DNA of 8,494 bases from a bacterium. Its GTDB lineage: Bacteria; BMS3Abin14. Below are positions 86 to 8,494 of this stretch, in pieces (the first letter of the stretch is position 1; the number at the start of each line of letters is the position of its first letter). Position numbers and translations under genes: made by a program. Under the pieces are notes generated by a model that made no database searches, was not told where the DNA came from, and saw nothing but the letters and a program-made list of their open reading frames with translations. Where the stretch lies: positions 1,167,530 through 1,176,023 of the forward strand of contig CP070719.1 in assembly GCA_020350725.1 (NCBI GenBank), given 5' to 3'.

Positions 86-157
86 CTGTGAACCAGTCTT
101 TTCGAATCACCAATTACGAATCACTAATCACGATGGTCTCAACCGTAAACCATGAAC
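86..157 (-). repeat. Composite heptamer module upstream of the PHP gene
   Basis: Four 7-bp units of consensus NAATYAC occupy 104-131 and three units ending in AAC occupy 137-157 (including CGTAAAC and CATGAAC). Read on the minus strand, away from the PHP gene, the order is GTTYACG-type units, then GTGATTN-type units, then a spacer (86-108 reversed) that matches 8353-8375 at about 20 of 23 positions by eye. It is one copy of a module that recurs at other gene borders in the window. Confidence 0.75.
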
Positions 158-1244: not shown

Positions 1245-3683
1245 ATGTTGAAACAGTACCAAGGCATAATCGAATCCTTTCTGGCTCAGCACTCGGTTCC
1301 TTCACCGTGGGGCCTGGATCTGATGGATTCCATCAGCGTCACGGCAGCAGGCCTTTCCCTCCTTTTCTTTATCATGCATCTGTTCCGGAGCCGACCCTCG
1401 GCGGCAGTCGTCGACCGGCCAGGGGGAGTTCTGGCCAAGAAGGCCCGAAAGGCAGAGAAAAGAGGAAGCTACCTCGAGGCTGGCGATCTCTATTCCCGGG
1501 CGAGGATGTTCAAGGAGGCGGCAAAGGCGTTCGTGAAGGTTGGCGAGTTTCAGCGGGCGGCCGATTCGTGTCTGGAGTTCAACGACTTCAGAAACGCCGC
1601 CGAGTGTTTCTTCCGCATGGGCGACATGGACCGGGCGGCGGAGTATTTTCTGAAGGCAAAGGACTATATCAGGGCTGCCGAAACCTACGCCGACATAGGG
1701 CTGCTTCACGAGGCTGCTCCGCTCTTTGTCAAGGGTGGTCAGACGCAGCGGTCGGCGGAGGCCTACGCCCGAAGCGGATTTTTCCAGAAAGCCGGAGAGC
1801 TCCTGGCGAATTCGGGTGATCACTCCAGCGCAGCTTCCCACCTCATGAGGGCCCTTCAGGACAGGATCAGCCGGCGGGATTCTTCGGTGAAACCGGAGGA
1901 AGACAGGGTTACGATGAATCTTGCCGCCCAGGCCTCCGCGAGCCTTATCCAGAGCGGGCAGAGGGAGAAGGCTGCCCAGGTTCTGGAAAGCGGGGGCCAT
2001 TTCGGAAAGTCCGCCTCCCTTTTCGAGGAACTCGGCCAGACAACCAGGGCAGCCGAGCTTTACATCAAGGCCAACGACACCCTGTCCGCTGCCCGCATTT
2101 TCGAGTCCGTCGACGCACCGGAATCGGGGGGAGCCCAGATCGCCGAGGCCCTCTACACGGAGGGCAAGAAGGCGGAGGCCGCCAAACTCTTCGAGCGGTT
2201 GAACGACTGGAACAGGGCTGCCCGGATCCACCAGGAGTCCGGCGACCTTGAGAACGCGGCAAAAGCCTTCCAGAGGGGCGGTGACAACTCTAAGGCGGCC
2301 GACCTCCTTGTGAGGATGGATCGGCCATCCGAGGCCGCTGCACTGCTTCTTTCCTCCGGCCGAGCGGAAGAGGCCGCCCGGATCTTTCAGAAGGTCGGCG
2401 AGACGGAGCGGGAGGCCGAGGCGCTGATGGAGGCGGGGGCGTTCATGCAGGCGGCTCGCCTGTTGATGAGGCTCGGGATGGACAAAGAGGCTACCGATGC
2501 CCTTCAGAAGGTAGAGGAAAAGAGCCCCGATTACCGGGATGCCAATCGTCTGCTGGGGGATCTTTTCTACGGACAACAGATCTGGTCTCTGGCCATCTCC
2601 AGCTATCAGAAATCCCTTGGCGACAAGGACGTCAGGAGAGATAACCTGGATTCATTCTATCGGTACGCGACGTCCCTCAAGGAGGACGGCCAGTTCCAGG
2701 GGGCGGTTTCTCTCTTCGAGAAGATCCTTCTCGTCGATTACCACTACCGGGACGTCAAGGATCTTCTTCAATCCCTCAGGGCGGTGATCGGCAATTCCAC
2801 GCCGGGAGGGGGCTCCGTCCGGCAGCCTCACCAGGCAGGCCAGGGATCGCCGGACCTCACCCGTCCCTCCGCTCCCCGGCAGGCGGCCAAGGCAAGCCGT
2901 TATGAGATCATCGAGGAGGTCGGCAGGGGGGGAATGGGGGTCGTCTACAGGGCCAGGGACACACTCCTGGACAGGGAGGTGGCCTACAAGGCCCTTCCGC
3001 CCCACGTCCAGAGGAACCAGCGCGTCCTGGATCTGTTCCTCAGGGAAGCTAAATCGGCCGCTAAACTCTCCCATCCCAACATCGTGACCATATTCGACGC
3101 CGATGAGGACAGTGGAGAATATTATATCATTATGGAGTTTGTGGAGGGCGAATCCCTCAAGGATCTTCTTGAAAACCAGGGCAAATTCGAGGTCAAACCG
3201 GCCCTCGTCCTCATCGGGCAGGTAATGCGGGCCCTCTCCTATGCCCACAGCAGGGGTATCGTCCACAGGGACATCAAGCCGGCGAACCTCCTCTGGTCAG
3301 GAGGCGAGAAACTGGTCAAGATAACAGATTTCGGCCTGGCCAGGGCGGTGGAGGAGGGCAGAAAGAACCACACCCAGATGGCGGGCACACCCTACTACAT
3401 GGCGCCGGAGCAGATCCTTGGCGGCCAGGTCGACAGTCGGGCCGATCTCTACTCCCTGGGAATCACGCTCTACGAGTTCCTGACCGGCACGGTACCCTTC
3501 AAGGAAGGGGACATCATGTACCATCATGTCCACACCGCGCCTGCCTCTCCCGACACTCACAACCCCGAGATCTCAGACAGCCTCAATCGCTTTATCCTCC
3601 GCTGCATCGAGAAGAACGTGGAGAAAAGGTATCCCAGCGTGGATGAGGCCATCGAGGATATGAAGGTCATCCTGAGAACCTGA
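1245..3683 (+). CDS. Membrane-anchored Ser/Thr protein kinase with long helical-repeat (TPR-like) region
   Basis: This 812-residue Hanks-type kinase is probably anchored in the inner membrane with its bulk in the cytoplasm. A hydrophobic segment (about 29-47) is followed by basic residues (R48, R50, K65, K66), predicting N-out/C-in. Residues about 65-420 form an alpha-helical repeat with Ala-Ala pairs nearly every 13 residues. Residues about 428-515 look like ordinary TPRs. A Gly/Pro/Gln-rich linker (516-550) leads to the kinase domain (552-812): glycine loop GRGGMG (560-565), K582 in VAYK, E601, HRD-K-N (H674, D676, K678, N681), DFG (695-697), GTPYYMAPE (714-722), D734 and R795. All catalytic residues are present, so it should be active; T710 and T715 are likely activation-loop sites. 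ATG 1245 has no Shine-Dalgarno but sits at the transcription start; an in-frame ATG at 1323 (M27) would still keep the anchor. No clear terminator follows. Confidence 0.93.
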   Translation: MLKQYQGIIESFLAQHSVPSPWGLDLMDSISVTAAGLSLLFFIMHLFRSRPSAAVVDRPGGVLAKKARKAEKRGSYLEAGDLYSRARMFKEAAKAFVKVGEFQRAADSCLEFNDFRNAAECFFRMGDMDRAAEYFLKAKDYIRAAETYADIGLLHEAAPLFVKGGQTQRSAEAYARSGFFQKAGELLANSGDHSSAASHLMRALQDRISRRDSSVKPEEDRVTMNLAAQASASLIQSGQREKAAQVLESGGHFGKSASLFEELGQTTRAAELYIKANDTLSAARIFESVDAPESGGAQIAEALYTEGKKAEAAKLFERLNDWNRAARIHQESGDLENAAKAFQRGGDNSKAADLLVRMDRPSEAAALLLSSGRAEEAARIFQKVGETEREAEALMEAGAFMQAARLLMRLGMDKEATDALQKVEEKSPDYRDANRLLGDLFYGQQIWSLAISSYQKSLGDKDVRRDNLDSFYRYATSLKEDGQFQGAVSLFEKILLVDYHYRDVKDLLQSLRAVIGNSTPGGGSVRQPHQAGQGSPDLTRPSAPRQAAKASRYEIIEEVGRGGMGVVYRARDTLLDREVAYKALPPHVQRNQRVLDLFLREAKSAAKLSHPNIVTIFDADEDSGEYYIIMEFVEGESLKDLLENQGKFEVKPALVLIGQVMRALSYAHSRGIVHRDIKPANLLWSGGEKLVKITDFGLARAVEEGRKNHTQMAGTPYYMAPEQILGGQVDSRADLYSLGITLYEFLTGTVPFKEGDIMYHHVHTAPASPDTHNPEISDSLNRFILRCIEKNVEKRYPSVDEAIEDMKVILRT

Positions 3684-3690
3684 AAAAACC

Positions 3691-3718
3691 AGTCCAGAGT
3701 CCAGAGTCCAGCGTCCAG
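3691..3718 (-). repeat. Four-unit heptamer array (AGTCCAG; CTGGACT on the minus strand)
   Basis: AGTCCAG occurs three times in tandem, followed by CGTCCAG, with no spacing, starting 7 bp after the kinase stop codon. It is the inverse orientation of the four-unit CTGGACT arrays at 5816-5843 and 5898-5925. Confidence 0.85.
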
Positions 3719-3740
3719 AGGAACGATTTAAAGGTAATGG

Positions 3741-3843
3741 GTACCGAAGTATCGATGTAGGAAAGTATCGAGGTGTTTAGAACAATAAAGAAGGCACCTG
3801 AGGTTTAATTCCTCGATACCTCCATACCTCGTTACACCGATAC
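3741..3843. repeat. Inverted pair of octamer arrays (GTATCGAG / CCTCGATA)
   Basis: Five 8-bp units (GTACCGAA, GTATCGAT, GTAGGAAA, GTATCGAG, GTGTTTAG) fill 3741-3780. Four 8-bp units of the reverse-complement family (CCTCGATA, CCTCCATA, CCTCGTTA, CACCGATA) fill 3811-3842. The arms 3741-3773 and 3811-3843 match as an inverted repeat at 25 of 33 positions, with the nine innermost bases perfect, so a long imperfect hairpin with a 37-nt loop could form in DNA or in read-through kinase mRNA. Confidence 0.75.
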
Positions 3844-3909
3844 TGACCACATGGCCTGGAACCTCAATCTTCTAACGAGGGGGAGATGGGGCGGAGGGTG
3901 GATGTATAG

Positions 3910-3986
3910 TTCTAAGAGATAAGTGATAAGAGATAAGTATACTGAGCTGTTACTTATCACATATCACTTAGTACTTAGGACTCAGC
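3910..3986. repeat. Inverted pair of heptamer arrays (AGATAAG / ACTTATC) forming a hairpin
   Basis: Four 7-bp units (TTCTAAG, AGATAAG, TGATAAG, AGATAAG) at 3910-3937 face five units (ACTTATC, ACATATC, ACTTAGT, ACTTAGG, ACTCAGC) at 3952-3986. Arms 3912-3938 and 3952-3978 are complementary at 22 of 27 positions around a 13-nt loop. There is no following T-run. Confidence 0.75.
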
Positions 3987-4043
3987 TCTCGGTGAACAGT
4001 TAGTACCTGGAACGTGGCACCTCAGACACGGGACTTGGACATC
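3987..4043. repeat. Continuation of the heptamer register with drifting unit sequence
   Basis: The 7-bp register set at 3952 continues without slippage through units such as TAGTACC, TGGAACG, TGGCACC, TCAGACA and CGGGACT (4001-4035), which share an AC at unit positions 5-6. The distance 3952 to 4001 is exactly seven units. The match is degenerate and visible mainly through the constant period. Confidence 0.5.
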
Positions 4044-4065
4044 AGAGGCAGAGAGAAACAGCGGT

Positions 4066-4156
4066 TGTCATTGCGAGGAGTTACGAGAGGGACGAGGGCG
4101 ACGCGGCAATCCAAGATTTTCCGGATCGCTTCACCTGAAGGCAGTTCGCGATGACA
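4066..4156. repeat. Palindromic intergenic element, TGTCATTGCGA type
   Basis: It begins TGTCATTGCGAGG (4066-4078) and ends TTCGCGATGACA (4145-4156), near-perfect inverted termini, with degraded inner arms GGCAATCC (4105-4112) and GGATCGCTTC (4123-4132). Elements with these termini are, as I recall, widespread dispersed intergenic palindromes in many environmental bacteria. A second copy is at 5686-5765. It encodes nothing and resembles a REP- or MITE-like element. Confidence 0.7.
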
Positions 4157-4166
4157 GGTAATGCGC

Positions 4167-4262
4167 GGAGACATGGGGACGCGGGGAAAAAACGCGAATC
4201 ACTAATTACGAATCACTAATCACGGGTGCTACCTAATCACGAATCACAAATCACTGATCACG
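4167..4262 (-). repeat. Octamer run plus two four-unit heptamer arrays (NAATCAC)
   Basis: Three G-rich octamers (GGAGACAT, GGGGACGC, GGGGAAAA) fill 4167-4190. Four NAATYAC heptamers follow at 4196-4223 and four more at 4234-4261. Reverse-complemented, the junction reads GTGATTN arrays running into CGTTTTTTCCCCGCGTC (4179-4195 reversed), which is repeated on the plus strand at 8443-8459. It lies 3' of the pentapeptide gene. Confidence 0.85.
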
Positions 4263-4268
4263 GCGGTT

Positions 4269-4296
4269 TAACAACCGTAAACTGGAAACGGTGAAC
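4269..4296 (-). repeat. Four-unit heptamer array (CGTAAAC / GGTGAAC family)
   Basis: Units TAACAAC, CGTAAAC, TGGAAAC and GGTGAAC follow with a strict 7-bp period, ending 15 bp from the pentapeptide stop codon. On the minus strand this is the GTTYACN family, the block always found closest to a gene in this window. Confidence 0.75.
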
Positions 4297-4311
4297 TTTG
4301 GTTAGCGCCTC

Positions 4312-5403
4312 TCAATCCAGCGACGGATGTCTTGTCCCCGTGAGTTTCGCATCCTGAAGGTCGGTCCCGACCACGGTCGCTCCGGAAAGATCAGCCCGCG
4401 AGAGGTCGGTGCCGACGACTATGGCTCGGGTAATGTCGGCGTTTTTCAGGATGGCCCCCGTCAGGTTCGAACCGATGAGACTGCACCCGGACATCCTGGC
4501 ACCGGTGAAATCGGCACCCTGAACGGCGCATTTCTTCAGCTTGGCCTCCTTCAGCACGGTGCCCACAAAAGAGCACCTTCCGAGATCGGCCTCCTCGGCC
4601 GTCACGTATGTCATCCGGGCGTAACTGAAGTCGCATTCGTTCAGGTCGGTGCCGGTCAGGAGGCCCTGCGACATCTCGGCGCCCCTGAAGGTGGCTTTCT
4701 TAAAGACGGCCCCGGTGAGGTTGGCGCCGGTGAGGTTGGAGAGCGAGAAGTCGGCTCCGGGACCCCTGGCCCCGGTGAGGTCGGATTTCAGCATGGTGGC
4801 TTCGAAGAAGCCCGTTGAGAAAAGGGCCGCTCCCCGCAGATCGGCCCTCGTCAGGTTTGCCCCCTTGAGGTCGGCTCCGGAGAGGTCGCATTTCTCGAGG
4901 GAACTGGCGGTCAGGTTCGCCCCGCCGAGAGATACTCCTCTCAGATTTGCGCCGTCCAGACGGGATTCTTCCAGGTCCGCCCCGTCGAGTATTGCGCCCG
5001 GTGCCTGAACGGTATTACCGTGGGACCTCCTCAGAGCGGCTCCTGACAGATTGGCGGCGGACAGGTCGCAGTCGTTGATCTTCACGTCATCCATATTGGT
5101 GCTTGAAAAACTGGCGCTTGAGGCCTTGGCGCTCTGCAGATCCGCTCCGACAAGCTTGGCCCTGTCCAGACGGGCCGATCGCATCGTTGCCCCTGAAAGG
5201 TTCGCGTAGGAGAGGTCCGCACCGGAGAGGTCGGCACCGGAGAGGTCGGCACTGGAGAGATCCGCGTACTGGAGATTGGCCTCATGGAGGTTCAGGCCGG
5301 AAAGGTCCTCGCCCCTGAGATCGATCCTTACCAGGTTGGCCCCGGCAAGGCTTTCGCCGCGCTCCTTCTTCCGTAAGATCTCCGCAGAGGTGTAGTCGGC
5401 CAT
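4312..5403 (-). CDS. Long pentapeptide-repeat protein (right-handed quadrilateral beta-helix)
   Basis: This 363-residue protein is almost entirely A(D/N)LXX repeats. The central Leu/Phe/Met falls at every residue numbered 4 modulo 5 from L24 to L354: 67 consecutive pentapeptides with only five weak centres (A94, G129, A134, G214, A269) and no phase break. Four pentapeptides make one coil, so 16-17 coils are expected. A short charged helix-like N-terminus (about 5-17) probably caps the helix. There is no signal peptide or membrane segment, so it is probably cytoplasmic. Known members include Qnr/MfpA, DNA mimics of gyrase ligands, but those are about 180-220 residues; this one is much longer and no specific target is indicated. 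Cysteines 112, 172, 257, 277, 292 and 307 all occupy the same position of the pentapeptide. The Shine-Dalgarno is weak (GGGA about 10 nt upstream). It is transcribed alone, opposite to its neighbours. Confidence 0.92.
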   Translation of the reverse strand: MADYTSAEILRKKERGESLAGANLVRIDLRGEDLSGLNLHEANLQYADLSSADLSGADLSGADLSYANLSGATMRSARLDRAKLVGADLQSAKASSASFSSTNMDDVKINDCDLSAANLSGAALRRSHGNTVQAPGAILDGADLEESRLDGANLRGVSLGGANLTASSLEKCDLSGADLKGANLTRADLRGAALFSTGFFEATMLKSDLTGARGPGADFSLSNLTGANLTGAVFKKATFRGAEMSQGLLTGTDLNECDFSYARMTYVTAEEADLGRCSFVGTVLKEAKLKKCAVQGADFTGARMSGCSLIGSNLTGAILKNADITRAIVVGTDLSRADLSGATVVGTDLQDAKLTGTRHPSLD

Positions 5404-5409
5404 TGATCA

Positions 5410-5437
5410 GTTCCCGGTTTTCGGTTTACGGTTTATA
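5410..5437 (+). repeat. Four-unit heptamer array (GTTTACG family) upstream of the pentapeptide gene
   Basis: GTTCCCG, GTTTTCG, GTTTACG and GTTTATA follow one another with no spacing, starting 6 bp outside the pentapeptide start codon. This is the mirror image of the array at 4269-4296 on the other side of the same gene. Confidence 0.8.
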
Positions 5438-5442
5438 GTATA
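5437..5442 (-). promoter_or_regulatory. Possible -10 box of the pentapeptide gene
   Basis: On the minus strand TATACT lies about 34 nt before the ATG at 5403, giving a leader of roughly 28 nt. No good -35 is seen at 16-18 bp upstream. The box overlaps the edge of the GTTTATA heptamer unit, so the promoter, if real, sits inside repeat DNA. Confidence 0.3.
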
Positions 5443-5452
5443 AAGCAGAGCA

Positions 5453-5494
5453 TTAGAAATTAGAGATTAGAGATCAATCCAAAGTCCAAAATAT
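5453..5494 (+). repeat. Heptamer array (TTAGAGA passing into AAAGTCC)
   Basis: TTAGAAA, TTAGAGA and TTAGAGA (5453-5473) are followed in the same 7-bp register by TCAATCC and AAAGTCC and an A-rich unit. The sequence family changes but the register is kept. Confidence 0.65.
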
Positions 5495-5500
5495 AACTTC

Positions 5501-5577
5501 CGTGATTAGTGACTCGTGATTCGTGATTAGTTAACGAATCCCAAATCCCAAATCCAAAATCCAAAACTGAAAACATC
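5501..5577 (+). repeat. Eleven heptamers in one register, CGTGATT switching to AAATCCM
   Basis: Units CGTGATT, AGTGACT, CGTGATT, CGTGATT (5501-5528) continue through AGTTAAC into GAATCCC, AAATCCC, AAATCCA, AAATCCA, AAACTGA and AAACATC (5536-5577) with no insertion or deletion. Two unrelated heptamer families thus share one uninterrupted 7-bp frame. Confidence 0.85.
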
Positions 5578-5630
5578 TCTGTGGCCCTCTGTGATGCGGT
5601 CTGAAAGGGACCGCTCTGTGGCCCTCTGTG
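5577..5630 (+). repeat. 17-bp direct repeats flanking a hairpin
   Basis: CTCTGTGGCCCTCTGTG occurs perfectly at 5577-5593 and 5614-5630. Between them GCGGTC (5596-5601) and GACCGC (5609-5614) can form a 6-bp stem with a 7-nt loop. Confidence 0.8.
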
Positions 5631-5644
5631 GTAAATGCCTTTCC

Positions 5645-5765
5645 CGAGATCGCTTCGCTCATGGACAGCTCGCGATGACAACACCTGTCACTGCGAGGCT
5701 GTTTCAGGGCCGAAGCAGTCTCGGCCATCGAGATTGCTTCACCCGGGTAGCGGTTCGCAATGACA
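5645..5765. repeat. One and a half copies of the TGTCATTGCGA palindromic element
   Basis: 5686-5765 starts TGTCACTGCGAGG and ends TTCGCAATGACA, with inner arms GAAGCAGTCTC (5712-5722) and GAGATTGCTTC (5730-5740). 5645-5680 is the right half only of another copy (GAGATCGCTTCGCTC to CGCGATGACA). They belong to the same family as 4066-4156 and stand nested next to each other. Confidence 0.7.
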
Positions 5766-5774
5766 ACCGCTTTT

Positions 5775-5939
5775 TCCCCGCGTCTTCCCTTCGCCCACTC
5801 GCCCCACCGCCCCCTCTGGACACTGGGCCCTGGACTCTGGACTCATTTGTCCCCGCGTCTCCCCTTCGCCCTCTCGACTCCTCGCCAAAGCGCCCCTCTG
5901 GACACTGGCCTCTGGACTCTGGACTCATTTCTCCCCGCG
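5775..5939 (+). repeat. Duplicated octamer-heptamer cassette
   Basis: Copy 1 has five C-rich 8-bp units from TCCCCGCG (5775-5814) and then four heptamers of the CTGGACT family (5816-5843). Copy 2 repeats the order: six octamers (5850-5897) and four heptamers (5898-5925). A third TCCCCGCG begins at 5932. The last two heptamers and following bases (CTGGACTCTGGACTCATTT) are identical in both copies. Translated frames here have low-complexity Pro/Arg/Ser composition and no family resemblance, so no gene is called. Confidence 0.8.
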
Positions 5940-6009
5940 TCGGGTTTCCCTCTGGAACGGGGACTTCCTTCCGCTCAGTGAGAGCCATAGTATGATTCCC
6001 GTATCACCC

Positions 6010-6038
6010 TTGTCAACATGCGTACTGTGAGCTAACAT
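6010..6038 (+). promoter_or_regulatory. Promoter of the FHA-amrS operon
   Basis: TTGTCA (6010-6015) and TAACAT (6033-6038) match the consensus at five of six and four of six positions with a 17-bp spacer. Transcription would begin near 6045, giving a leader of about 35 nt that carries the Shine-Dalgarno AAGGAG at 6064-6069. Confidence 0.55.
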
Positions 6039-6079
6039 CACTCCACACGGTTATCCTCTATGGAAGGAGAGGCTATCTC

Positions 6080-7270
6080 ATGGCGGGTACAGCATCCGGC
6101 GGTACACCATTCCCTTTCTCGGGGGTCGTTCTCGAGGATATCCACCCGGAGCCGGCTCTCTTTGACCGTATCCTGGAGGGGGAGGGTGAGCTGTCGTCAC
6201 TCGAATACGGGTTCTGCATGACGTCCGTTAACGAGGATGCGCCTGAACGCCGCTACCTCCTCATTTTCCAGGGGAAACCCTATTCCGCCGGCGTCATGTC
6301 GGCAAAGGGGAGCATCGAACCCACGCCGATCAGGGACTTTTTCGTCTACCTTGCCCAGAATCCCCATATTCTTCTCTCCTTTTTCCAGGCCGATCCCGTT
6401 CTGCTCAAATCCATACTCGTCATACAGGACAGCACCCCGGACACGGAAGGGGCCTCGGAGCTGATCAAGATTGAAAACCTGGTTGTCGGGCTCATGGAAG
6501 GCCGCAGTGACGCCTTGGTGACCCTCATCCAGGAGGGCCGTTTCAGCATCGTTTTTGTCAAGGGAGGCAAGGTGGTCAAGGCCTATTTCTCGGACAAGAT
6601 CCTTCAGGCATCCGGAGGCATGGAGTGGTTGGATCTTTTTAAAAAGATCCAGGTGGACCAGATCAAGGGGAAACAGGTCAGAATAAGGGTCTTTCAGGAC
6701 ATGGCCACCTCACCGGCCCCCGACTACCTCGAAGGTGAGCCCCGGTACACGGGCGGGGTGTTCCGTCACTACACACGGTCGTTCCCTGAGATCATCGTCA
6801 GGGACAGGACCAGGACTCTCAGGAGGGTCACTGTCGGAGAGTATCCCTTCATCATCGGAAGAGGGCAGGACGCGGACCTCACGCTCAACGATCCAGGCAT
6901 CTCCAGAAAACATGCCGCCCTCGAGGAGAAGAACGGAAGGGTCATCGTCAGGGATCTGGACAGCCTGAACGGGATCTTCGTCAATGATCACTTCACCCGC
7001 GAGTTCACCCTCCAGGACGGTGACCGGATCGCGGTCGGCAGCTATACCCTTCAGGTCGTTCTGCCCCGGTCGCCTGCCGAGGACGTTCAACTCGTCTCCC
7101 GGTCAAGCGACGACGCGACTATGGCGATGGACCGGAACGCCAAGGTCAAGGTCTCCTGCCCCCAATGCGGCGTGGCCGGATCCGTTGAGGCAGCCAAAAT
7201 GTACAGCAGAAAAAAGGTCCGGATCAAATGCCCCCAGTGCAGACACCGGTTCACGCCGGCAGGCTCCTGA
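6080..7270 (+). CDS. FHA-domain protein with C-terminal MJ0042-type zinc ribbon
   Basis: This 396-residue protein has three parts. Residues about 15-205 form a region I do not recognise with certainty; it contains two similar strand motifs, around 58-74 (RYLLIFQGK..) and 154-171 (RFSIVFVKGGK..), suggesting an internal duplication reminiscent of DUF4388-like domains. Residues about 236-327 are an FHA domain with the phosphothreonine-binding signatures G260-R261, S275-x-x-H278 and N297-G298 plus N302. Residues 360-387 are a zinc ribbon, C360-x2-C363 and C384-x2-C387, of the MJ0042 kind, normally found at protein N-termini. There is no signal peptide or membrane segment. The start is fixed by AAGGAG 10 nt upstream. 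Its natural role is to bind a Thr-phosphorylated partner, possibly a substrate of the kinase at 1245-3683 (inference). It shares an operon with the radical SAM gene 12 bp downstream. Confidence 0.88.
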   Translation: MAGTASGGTPFPFSGVVLEDIHPEPALFDRILEGEGELSSLEYGFCMTSVNEDAPERRYLLIFQGKPYSAGVMSAKGSIEPTPIRDFFVYLAQNPHILLSFFQADPVLLKSILVIQDSTPDTEGASELIKIENLVVGLMEGRSDALVTLIQEGRFSIVFVKGGKVVKAYFSDKILQASGGMEWLDLFKKIQVDQIKGKQVRIRVFQDMATSPAPDYLEGEPRYTGGVFRHYTRSFPEIIVRDRTRTLRRVTVGEYPFIIGRGQDADLTLNDPGISRKHAALEEKNGRVIVRDLDSLNGIFVNDHFTREFTLQDGDRIAVGSYTLQVVLPRSPAEDVQLVSRSSDDATMAMDRNAKVKVSCPQCGVAGSVEAAKMYSRKKVRIKCPQCRHRFTPAGS

Positions 7271-8308: not shown

Positions 8309-8310
8309 CA

Positions 8311-8444
8311 GTTCACGGTTGGTGAATCAGTGATTCGTGATTTGTGATTCGTGATTCGTAAAGACCAGTTCACAGTTCACCGTTCACCATTCACGGTTTA
8401 CGGTTGAAGACCGCCGTGATTCGTGATTTGTGATTCGTGATTCG
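8311..8444 (+). repeat. Composite heptamer module downstream of amrS
   Basis: In order: GTTCACG (8311-8317), four GTGATTN units (8330-8357), a spacer AAAGACCA (8360-8367), six GTTCAC/GTTTAC-type units (8368-8409), and four GTGATTN units again (8416-8443). The two GTGATTN arrays are a perfect 30-bp direct repeat (8330-8359 and 8416-8445). From 8375 on, the arrangement corresponds to the reverse complement of 4179-4296. Confidence 0.88.
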
Positions 8445-8494
8445 TTTTTTCCCCGCGTCTGCTTTTCGCCCCCTCTCCCTATCTCCCCCTCGCA
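8445..8494 (+). repeat. T-run and C-rich octamer array at window end
   Basis: Six T residues (8445-8450) lead into 8-bp units TCCCCGCG, TCTGCTTT, TCGCCCCC, TCTCCCTA and TCTCCCCC (8450-8489), cut off by the window end. It is the same octamer family as 5775-5814 and 5850-5897. The T-run is not preceded by a self-complementary stem, so I do not call a terminator. Confidence 0.7.

Follow-up and report, generated by a model that had tools for sequence, protein, structure and literature searches.

What generates, and what maintains, bacterial intergenic DNA that appears to be laid out in steps of 7 bp? The question is raised by positions 3684–4311 of an 8,494-nucleotide stretch (the window; 1,167,530–1,176,023 of a 2.78-Mb single-scaffold genome). 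A sequence-only reading had described this gap and two similar mosaics as degenerate tandem units of 7 or 8 bp. We analyzed the window together with 100 evenly spaced 20-kb stretches of the genome (L001–L100; 2.0 Mb, 72% of the genome), in which genes were called via codon usage and the intergenic part amounts to ~0.3 Mb.

The period itself is robust. Across the window gaps, sequence matched itself at lag 7 with a frequency of 0.378, compared to 0.253 in dinucleotide shuffles (z 12.4); lag 14 reached z 9.8, and nothing comparable was seen at other lags except multiples of 7. No comparable lag-7 excess was found within the window's genes, and the gap at 3684–4311 taken singly gave z 7.6. Genome-wide autocorrelation of intergenic DNA, which the sequence-only reading had proposed as its check, revealed the same excess at lag 7 (0.321 vs 0.2545, z 84) and, less strongly, at lag 8 (0.281, z 34), with some included 100-N gaps slightly lifting every lag. 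Once N-containing arrays were removed, 431 lag-7 and 84 lag-8 arrays remained in the sample, as against just 2, 6, and 4 arrays at lags 5, 6, and 9. Mononucleotide shuffles or a Markov null at the same array threshold yielded zero arrays. Heptamer arrays are overwhelmingly intergenic (478 vs 13.8 in genes scaled to equal length; 47 of the 478 were later dropped, mostly because of Ns). About 73 N runs are scattered through the sampled stretches, several of them at repeat mosaics, and a scaffold assembly of this kind may misjoin or under-represent arrays.

How much of the intergenic DNA is periodic had been overstated. The claim that nearly every base outside genes falls into such units is too strong for the three mosaic gaps, where lag-7/8 arrays (threshold 8) cover 28% of 3684–4311, 26% of 5404–6079, and 62% of 8309–8494. 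They cover 8% of the gap at 1–332 and none of the gap at 1017–1244. The gap at 3684–4311 also contains non-tandem elements, such as a GTCATTGCGA...TCGCGATGACA hairpin.

Table 1. Repeat arrays and hairpin elements located in the window (window coordinates).
Feature	Position	Strand	Basis
GTGATTN four-unit array (+ reads AATCACC AATTACG AATCACT AATCAC)	105..131	-	lag-7 array
CTGGACT four-unit array (AGTCCAG x4 on +)	3691..3718	-	lag-7/8 array detection
Octamer hairpin element, left arm (GTATCGAN units)	3741..3773	.	inverted repeat I2, 76% complementary to 3811-3843
Octamer hairpin element, right arm (CCTCGATA units)	3811..3843	.	inverted repeat I2
Heptamer hairpin element, left arm (AGATAAG/TGATAAG units)	3908..3939	.	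inverted repeat I1
Heptamer hairpin element, right arm (CTTATCA/ACTTAGN units)	3951..3982	.	inverted repeat I1
Dispersed non-tandem hairpin element (GTCATTGCGAG...CGCGATGACA)	4065..4156	.	fold z -2.3
GTGATTN four-unit array	4197..4223	-	lag-7/8 array detection
GTGATTN four-unit array, second in gap	4235..4261	-	lag-7/8 array detection
Degenerate GTTYACN-type units (+: ACAACCG TAAACTG GAAACGG TGAAC)	4271..4297	-	sequence
CGGTTTA x3, GTTYACN-type module	5415..5435	+	lag-7/8 array detection
ATTAGAG/AGAGATT units	5452..5474	+	lag-7/8 array detection
GTGATTN four-unit array	5502..5528	+	lag-7/8 array detection
AATCCAA four-unit array	5537..5566	+	lag array detection
CTGGACN four-unit array	5814..5844	+	lag-7/8 array detection
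CTGGACN four-unit array, near copy of 5814-5844	5896..5926	+	lag-7/8 array detection
GTGATTN four-unit array	8330..8359	+	lag-7/8 array detection
GTTCACN array, 5-6 units	8366..8405	+	lag array detection
GTGATTN four-unit array, units identical to 8330-8359	8415..8445	+	sequence, lag array
C-rich octamer-type words (CCCCGCGTCT, TCGCCCCC, TCTCCCTA)	8448..8494	+	sequence

Several entries in Table 1 have relatives elsewhere in the genome. The degenerate units at 4271–4297 match the GTTCACN module that in other places precedes GTGATTN, and the C-rich words at 8448–8494 belong with a family of the genome sample, CGCCCCNT/CCCCGCGT. Near-full copies in the sample number 26 for the heptamer hairpin element (3908–3982) and 13 for the octamer hairpin element (3741–3843); four were found for the hairpin at 4065–4156, and words related to it occur in other mosaics. 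A further dispersed word, CCCTTCGACAGGCTC / GACAAGCTCACGG, lies at 42–80 beside GTTCACN modules and recurs in other mosaics as CCTGAGCCTGTCGAAGGG. Among the genes of the window, a pentapeptide-repeat gene is flanked by a TPR-repeat protein kinase and an FHA-domain protein (1245–3683, 6080–7270), possibly a signaling cluster; the kinase is present in most relatives, usually adjacent to the pentapeptide gene.

The period is held constant across many unrelated unit families, as the earlier reading had proposed, and this diversity was evident among the 431 lag-7 and 84 lag-8 arrays. EM applied to three sets of non-redundant families (38, 34, and 38) to look for a common heptamer motif recovered no more information than shuffled letters: 4.23 vs 4.05 ± 0.24 in this genome, 4.34 vs 4.13 ± 0.19 in relatives, and 3.97 vs 4.17 ± 0.13 in other phyla. 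A universal heptamer code was rejected on this basis.

A second regularity is the number of units. The recurrence of four-unit blocks had been noticed in the window, and four proved to be the modal number, with the blocks recurring as blocks. GTGATTN arrays with at most one mismatch per unit comprised three units in 27 cases, four in 113, and five in 15, and CTGGACT arrays three units in 16 cases and four in 79. At the loosest threshold (8), heptamer arrays of this genome had three, four, or five units in 191, 338, and 90 cases; this mode persisted at every threshold and does not arise from the choice of cutoff. Four is likewise the peak for octamer arrays at the standard threshold. Within the sampled 72% of the genome, four-unit copies number 133 for GTGATTN, 131 for CTGGACN, 91 for GTTCACN, and 73 for AATCCAA.

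Substitutions within units provide a third line of evidence. Among the 133 GTGATTN blocks, pairwise differences between copies run at 0.06 per site in the six-position core but at 0.52–0.67 in the seventh position, like unrelated flank; in the linkers adjoining the blocks they run at 0.23–0.32, and 80 of the 133 blocks fall into three linker classes. The sample was capped at four mismatches to the motif, but only 5 of 133 arrays reach this cap and the mismatch distribution peaks at one, so the core constraint was not made by sample selection. Neighboring GTGATTN units carried an equal seventh base in 77 of 399 cases, compared to 121.5 ± 7.7 expected. This avoidance is the opposite of simple slippage. 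In CTGGACN, no such avoidance between neighbors was seen (226 vs 220.5 expected). Degenerate positions in other families are position 5 in CTGGACN and GTTCACN and positions 2 and 6 in AATCCAA. Deviations in families other than GTGATTN concentrate by phase, which copying of mutated units could partly cause; the core constraint is well measured in GTGATTN alone, the degeneracy of the other families being less clean. Patterns of similarity between neighbors were discounted, since detecting arrays at lag 7 already favors them. A conserved six-base core with a free seventh base fits what would be expected if GTGATTN were read in 7-bp steps. The pattern as a whole is consistent with recognition of a six-base core at that spacing, together with selection against perfect, unstable repeats.

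The blocks appear to travel as wholes. A CTGGACN unit matches the same-numbered unit of other arrays at 6.19 of 7 positions but units of its own array at about 5.76–5.77 of 7, indicating that blocks are copied whole. Linkers between blocks are specific to each ordered pair. In one chain, a GTTCACN run is followed by GTTGGGAAACCGCC, GTGATTN x4, and then GAAAAGACTA with a further GTTCACN run; in an alternative chain, GTGATTN x4 is followed by GGAAACG and an AATCCAA run. On the GTGATT strand the order is nearly fixed: GTTCACN and GTGATTN lead, CTCTGTGG words and the GCAATGAC element follow, and hairpin modules and CTGGACT come last. CTGGACT preceded GTTCACN in 0 of 50 pairs and GTGATTN in 0 of 53 (0 of 103 together), and 237 of 285 array pairs share an orientation. 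That the blocks are chained in one favored order and orientation, through linkers particular to each junction, also argues for copying as blocks. About 18% of intergenic bases genome-wide match a different intergenic region, and near-identical intergenic segments of up to ~300 bp occur at distant sites. This recurrence and the fixed order indicate that finished mosaics are copied in pieces.

Could slippage alone account for these features? Under this explanation, polymerase slips most readily by ~7 nt, the heptamers are neutral, and local sequences are expanded and then duplicated. Homologous copies do differ mainly by single units: we found 166 distinct contexts of 7-bp indels, 121 of them tandem-like (the inserted unit resembles its neighbor), compared to 42 contexts with 0 tandem-like at 6 bp, 25 with 2 at 9 bp, and 33 with 17 at 14 bp. 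The dominance of unit-sized tandem-like indels implies that one-unit slippage acts on existing arrays. The period is also common to relatives and other phyla, the words largely are not, and a universal code is absent, all as neutral expansion would have it. As cited in PMC4679880, Mrazek 2007 found heptanucleotides to be more abundant than any other class of long repeat in most bacterial genomes, and proposed a cause of the same kind, perhaps because ~7 nt interact with polymerase. Slippage alone, however, predicts decaying unit numbers, whereas GTGATTN shows a mode at four and a dip at three; it also predicts similar neighbors, whereas GTGATTN neighbors avoid an equal seventh base. Moreover, non-tandem gaps show no 7-bp preference (45 at 7 bp, 42 at 6 bp, and 45 at 8 bp). 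We consider pure slippage unlikely.

Comparison with other genomes separates the period from the words. The phylum comparison set comprised 12 genomes of one family, the nearest belonging to other genera with unalignable intergenic DNA; neither a pair of empty and occupied sites nor a target duplication could be demonstrated with this set. On whether related genomes would share the families, the answer was divided: the period recurs, lag 7 being the commonest array period in the sampled stretches of 11 of 11 relatives, but the words are largely different. Unit numbers in these stretches again peak at four (44 arrays of three units, 82 of four, 26 of five). Several relatives carry heptamer arrays of differing families in the orthologous gap between the kinase and pentapeptide genes, some as an inverted pair. 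Another genus (G007) has a relative of the GTCATTGCGAG...GCGATGACA hairpin at 4065–4156 in its orthologous gap, as TTGTCATCGCGAGC...GCAGTGACTGC downstream of the kinase gene in stretch L232.

Among the matches listed, many phyla carry exact four-unit GTGATTN arrays. Those listed from Xanthomonadales have four units, and their partners, where found, are always inverted and mostly four by four; run lengths at the listed loci outside Xanthomonadales decay, with no mode at four. On the latter result we rejected a four-unit rule across bacteria, and the absence of the mode elsewhere suggests one restricted to this lineage and Xanthomonadales. A phage origin was likewise rejected, since the four-unit GTGATTN pattern was found in just 24 stretches of 2.9 million viral contigs.

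Inverted array pairs are enriched in relatives (15 of 107 vs 3 in the control) and, among the matches listed, in other phyla (60 of 160 vs 20). Such pairs could serve as terminal inverted repeats of REP/BIME- or MITE-like non-autonomous elements moved by a RAYT-type transposase (Y1_Tnp), an explanation that would also suit the dispersal of the mosaics and the position of one of the two Y1_Tnp genes just before the window. In this genome, however, inverted partners are no commoner than in the control (24 vs 26). The gene adjoining the window (L043:355–1153, genome ~1,166,737–1,167,535; RAYT-like, with GGGGTCAGAG...TGCTCTGACCCC-type ends) lies across a 100-N assembly gap from the nearest array, the first of the GTGATTN arrays, and the second has no adjacent arrays and has its own GGGGTCGCATC-type ends. 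RAYT mobilization was rejected, the two genes having no consistent link to arrays, and we give the wider class of mobile-element explanations a slim chance.

Hairpin formation raises the possibility of RNA-level elements that terminate or stabilize transcripts. Good folds were obtained for two modules of the gap, the heptamer hairpin (I1, 81% complementary with an 11-nt loop; z -5.2) and the octamer hairpin (z -2.6). In stretches L236, L237, and L239 of relatives, inverted heptamer pairs lie after the kinase gene, between the same orthologous convergent genes (in L239 after position 1393), and the L239 pair surrounds a terminator-like GGCCACCGTTACGGTGGC hairpin. Covariation speaks against selected folding: the score for 22 distinct copies of the heptamer hairpin was 0.070 vs 0.068 in shuffles, and the 13 octamer hairpins contained one compensatory pair. 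A selected RNA hairpin was rejected because covariation is no higher than in shuffles. In addition, the GTGATTN and CTGGACT blocks show no tendency to fold (z about +0.8), no terminator-like site was found in 3600–4400, and array density is only modestly higher between convergent than between divergent genes (1.82 vs 1.18 per kb). No Rfam match was found anywhere in the window. We regard an RNA-level role as very improbable.

We favor, at roughly even chances of being right, an account in which these are dispersed non-coding mosaics of the STRR type, with units born by slippage, spread as blocks, and kept in their core by a factor. Each module is a block of ~28–32 bp made up of about four units in tandem, mostly of 7 bp and less often of 8 bp. 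Slippage would create units and alter their number, and finished blocks with their linkers would spread from one intergenic region to another, either by copying of segments or by recombination. A sequence-specific factor, either a DNA-binding protein or a mobilizing enzyme of the block itself, may recognize the six-base core as it recurs every 7 bp, thereby keeping the core, and would work best on about four contiguous units. That a factor reads 7-bp steps is, on sequence evidence, plausible but unproven. Of the dedicated generating mechanism or 7-bp-step reader suggested earlier, the reader finds backing in the GTGATTN core and free seventh base; unit-sized slippage is visible, and neither a reading factor nor a dedicated generating enzyme was identified in this analysis. 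The 7-bp preference of bacterial intergenic repeats is an old open question, to which polymerase slippage is the usual answer. Several families that for the most part have an equal unit number, together with the GTGATTN core and free seventh base, offer a direct test of slippage against recognition, and the copy numbers here suffice for a simple pull-down.

STRR is the name given to heptanucleotide repeats of cyanobacteria. Like STRR/LSSR repeats, the mosaics are intergenic degenerate tandem heptamers with several words per genome and a period constant across taxa; heptamers exceed chance, lie mainly between genes, and vary in unit number between copies. Unlike STRR/LSSR, they show a four-unit mode, block dispersal, ordered modular chains, and junction-specific linkers. 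The exact word strings are mostly absent from the open literature searched, the few matches being to unrelated aptamer, plant, and protein papers. A multi-family heptamer vocabulary had been thought undescribed, but precedents exist (PMC4679880, PMC2700814, PMC4692102). MacGregor (PMC4679880) describes mixed heptamers in Microcystis and Elizabethkingia, and these and the Beggiatoaceae TAACTGA repeats resemble the present ones in being abundant and intergenic and, in some genomes, mixed; the Beggiatoaceae repeats differ in using mostly one word, which is repeated two to six times and often located ahead of start codons (PMC4679880).

Closer parallels exist in Geobacter and Xanthomonas. PMC2700814 describes Geobacter metallireducens families of 4x GGACCGG, paired 4x GTTGCTYN octamers, 3x TCTCCGTS, and 5x MTYCTGA, with the octamers paired on opposite strands and the repeats interpreted as regulator sites. 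The likeness extends to several families, about four tandem 7- or 8-bp units, opposite-strand octamer pairs, and dozens of copies; the sequences differ, and linked ordered mosaics are not among the features described in the text consulted. None of the GGACCGG, GTTGCTYN, and MTYCTGA families appeared in the array listing of our genome sample. Xanthomonas GGGAATC arrays, for which a G-quadruplex explanation has been given, are mostly of four units and often in inverted pairs (PMC4692102). They share the intergenic location and four-unit majority seen here, many of them standing in inverted pairs. Unlike these and the Nostoc GGGGAYT heptamers (PMC4692102), the main families here have no G-tracts, so quadruplexes are not required for a four-unit mode. 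G-quadruplex heptamers were rejected for this genome, as GTGATTN, GTTCACN, CTGGACN, and AATCCAA lack G-tracts of three or more.

The functional parallel is parS of plasmid pSM19035, where the ribbon-helix-helix protein ParB/omega binds as one dimer per WATCACW heptad, direct order is accepted, and at least four contiguous heptads are needed for full ParA activation (PMC9499535). Operator- or centromere-like sites of this type, with one heptad per dimer and four contiguous heptads, would explain why contiguous heptads with an ATCAC core occur here with four, the minimum for full parS activity, as their modal number. A GTGATTN block reads AATCACN x4 on the other strand, and the hairpin module contains TATCACT. 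The seventh base, however, is A or T in 224 of 532 GTGATTN units (42%), which departs from WATCACW. The omega profile PF07764 had no match in this genome, but it had none in control genomes either, so this absence weighs little. Whereas parS is a plasmid locus with few sites, there are hundreds of chromosomal sites of several families here, including at least 133 four-unit sites all round the chromosome, and the remaining families would require other proteins. Centromere-like clustering was rejected, as arrays are spread over all 20 of 20 chromosome bins. By our own estimate, the chance that one of ~ten families shares an ATCAC-type core is roughly 3–14%. Given the 42% A/T and no detected omega homologue, we treat the resemblance as a lead to how the sites might work rather than as membership, and an omega/ParB-like system proper as improbable. 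Scarcely more probable is the broader proposal of chromosomal sites read in 7-bp steps by factors needing four heptads, in which the word diversifies and the period and number are kept. If it were true, plasmid parS heptads and the four-unit repeats of Xanthomonas and Geobacter would be separate glimpses of one architectural system. Set beside these systems, the heptamer mosaics are a known kind of repeat, unusually developed and modular in this genome.
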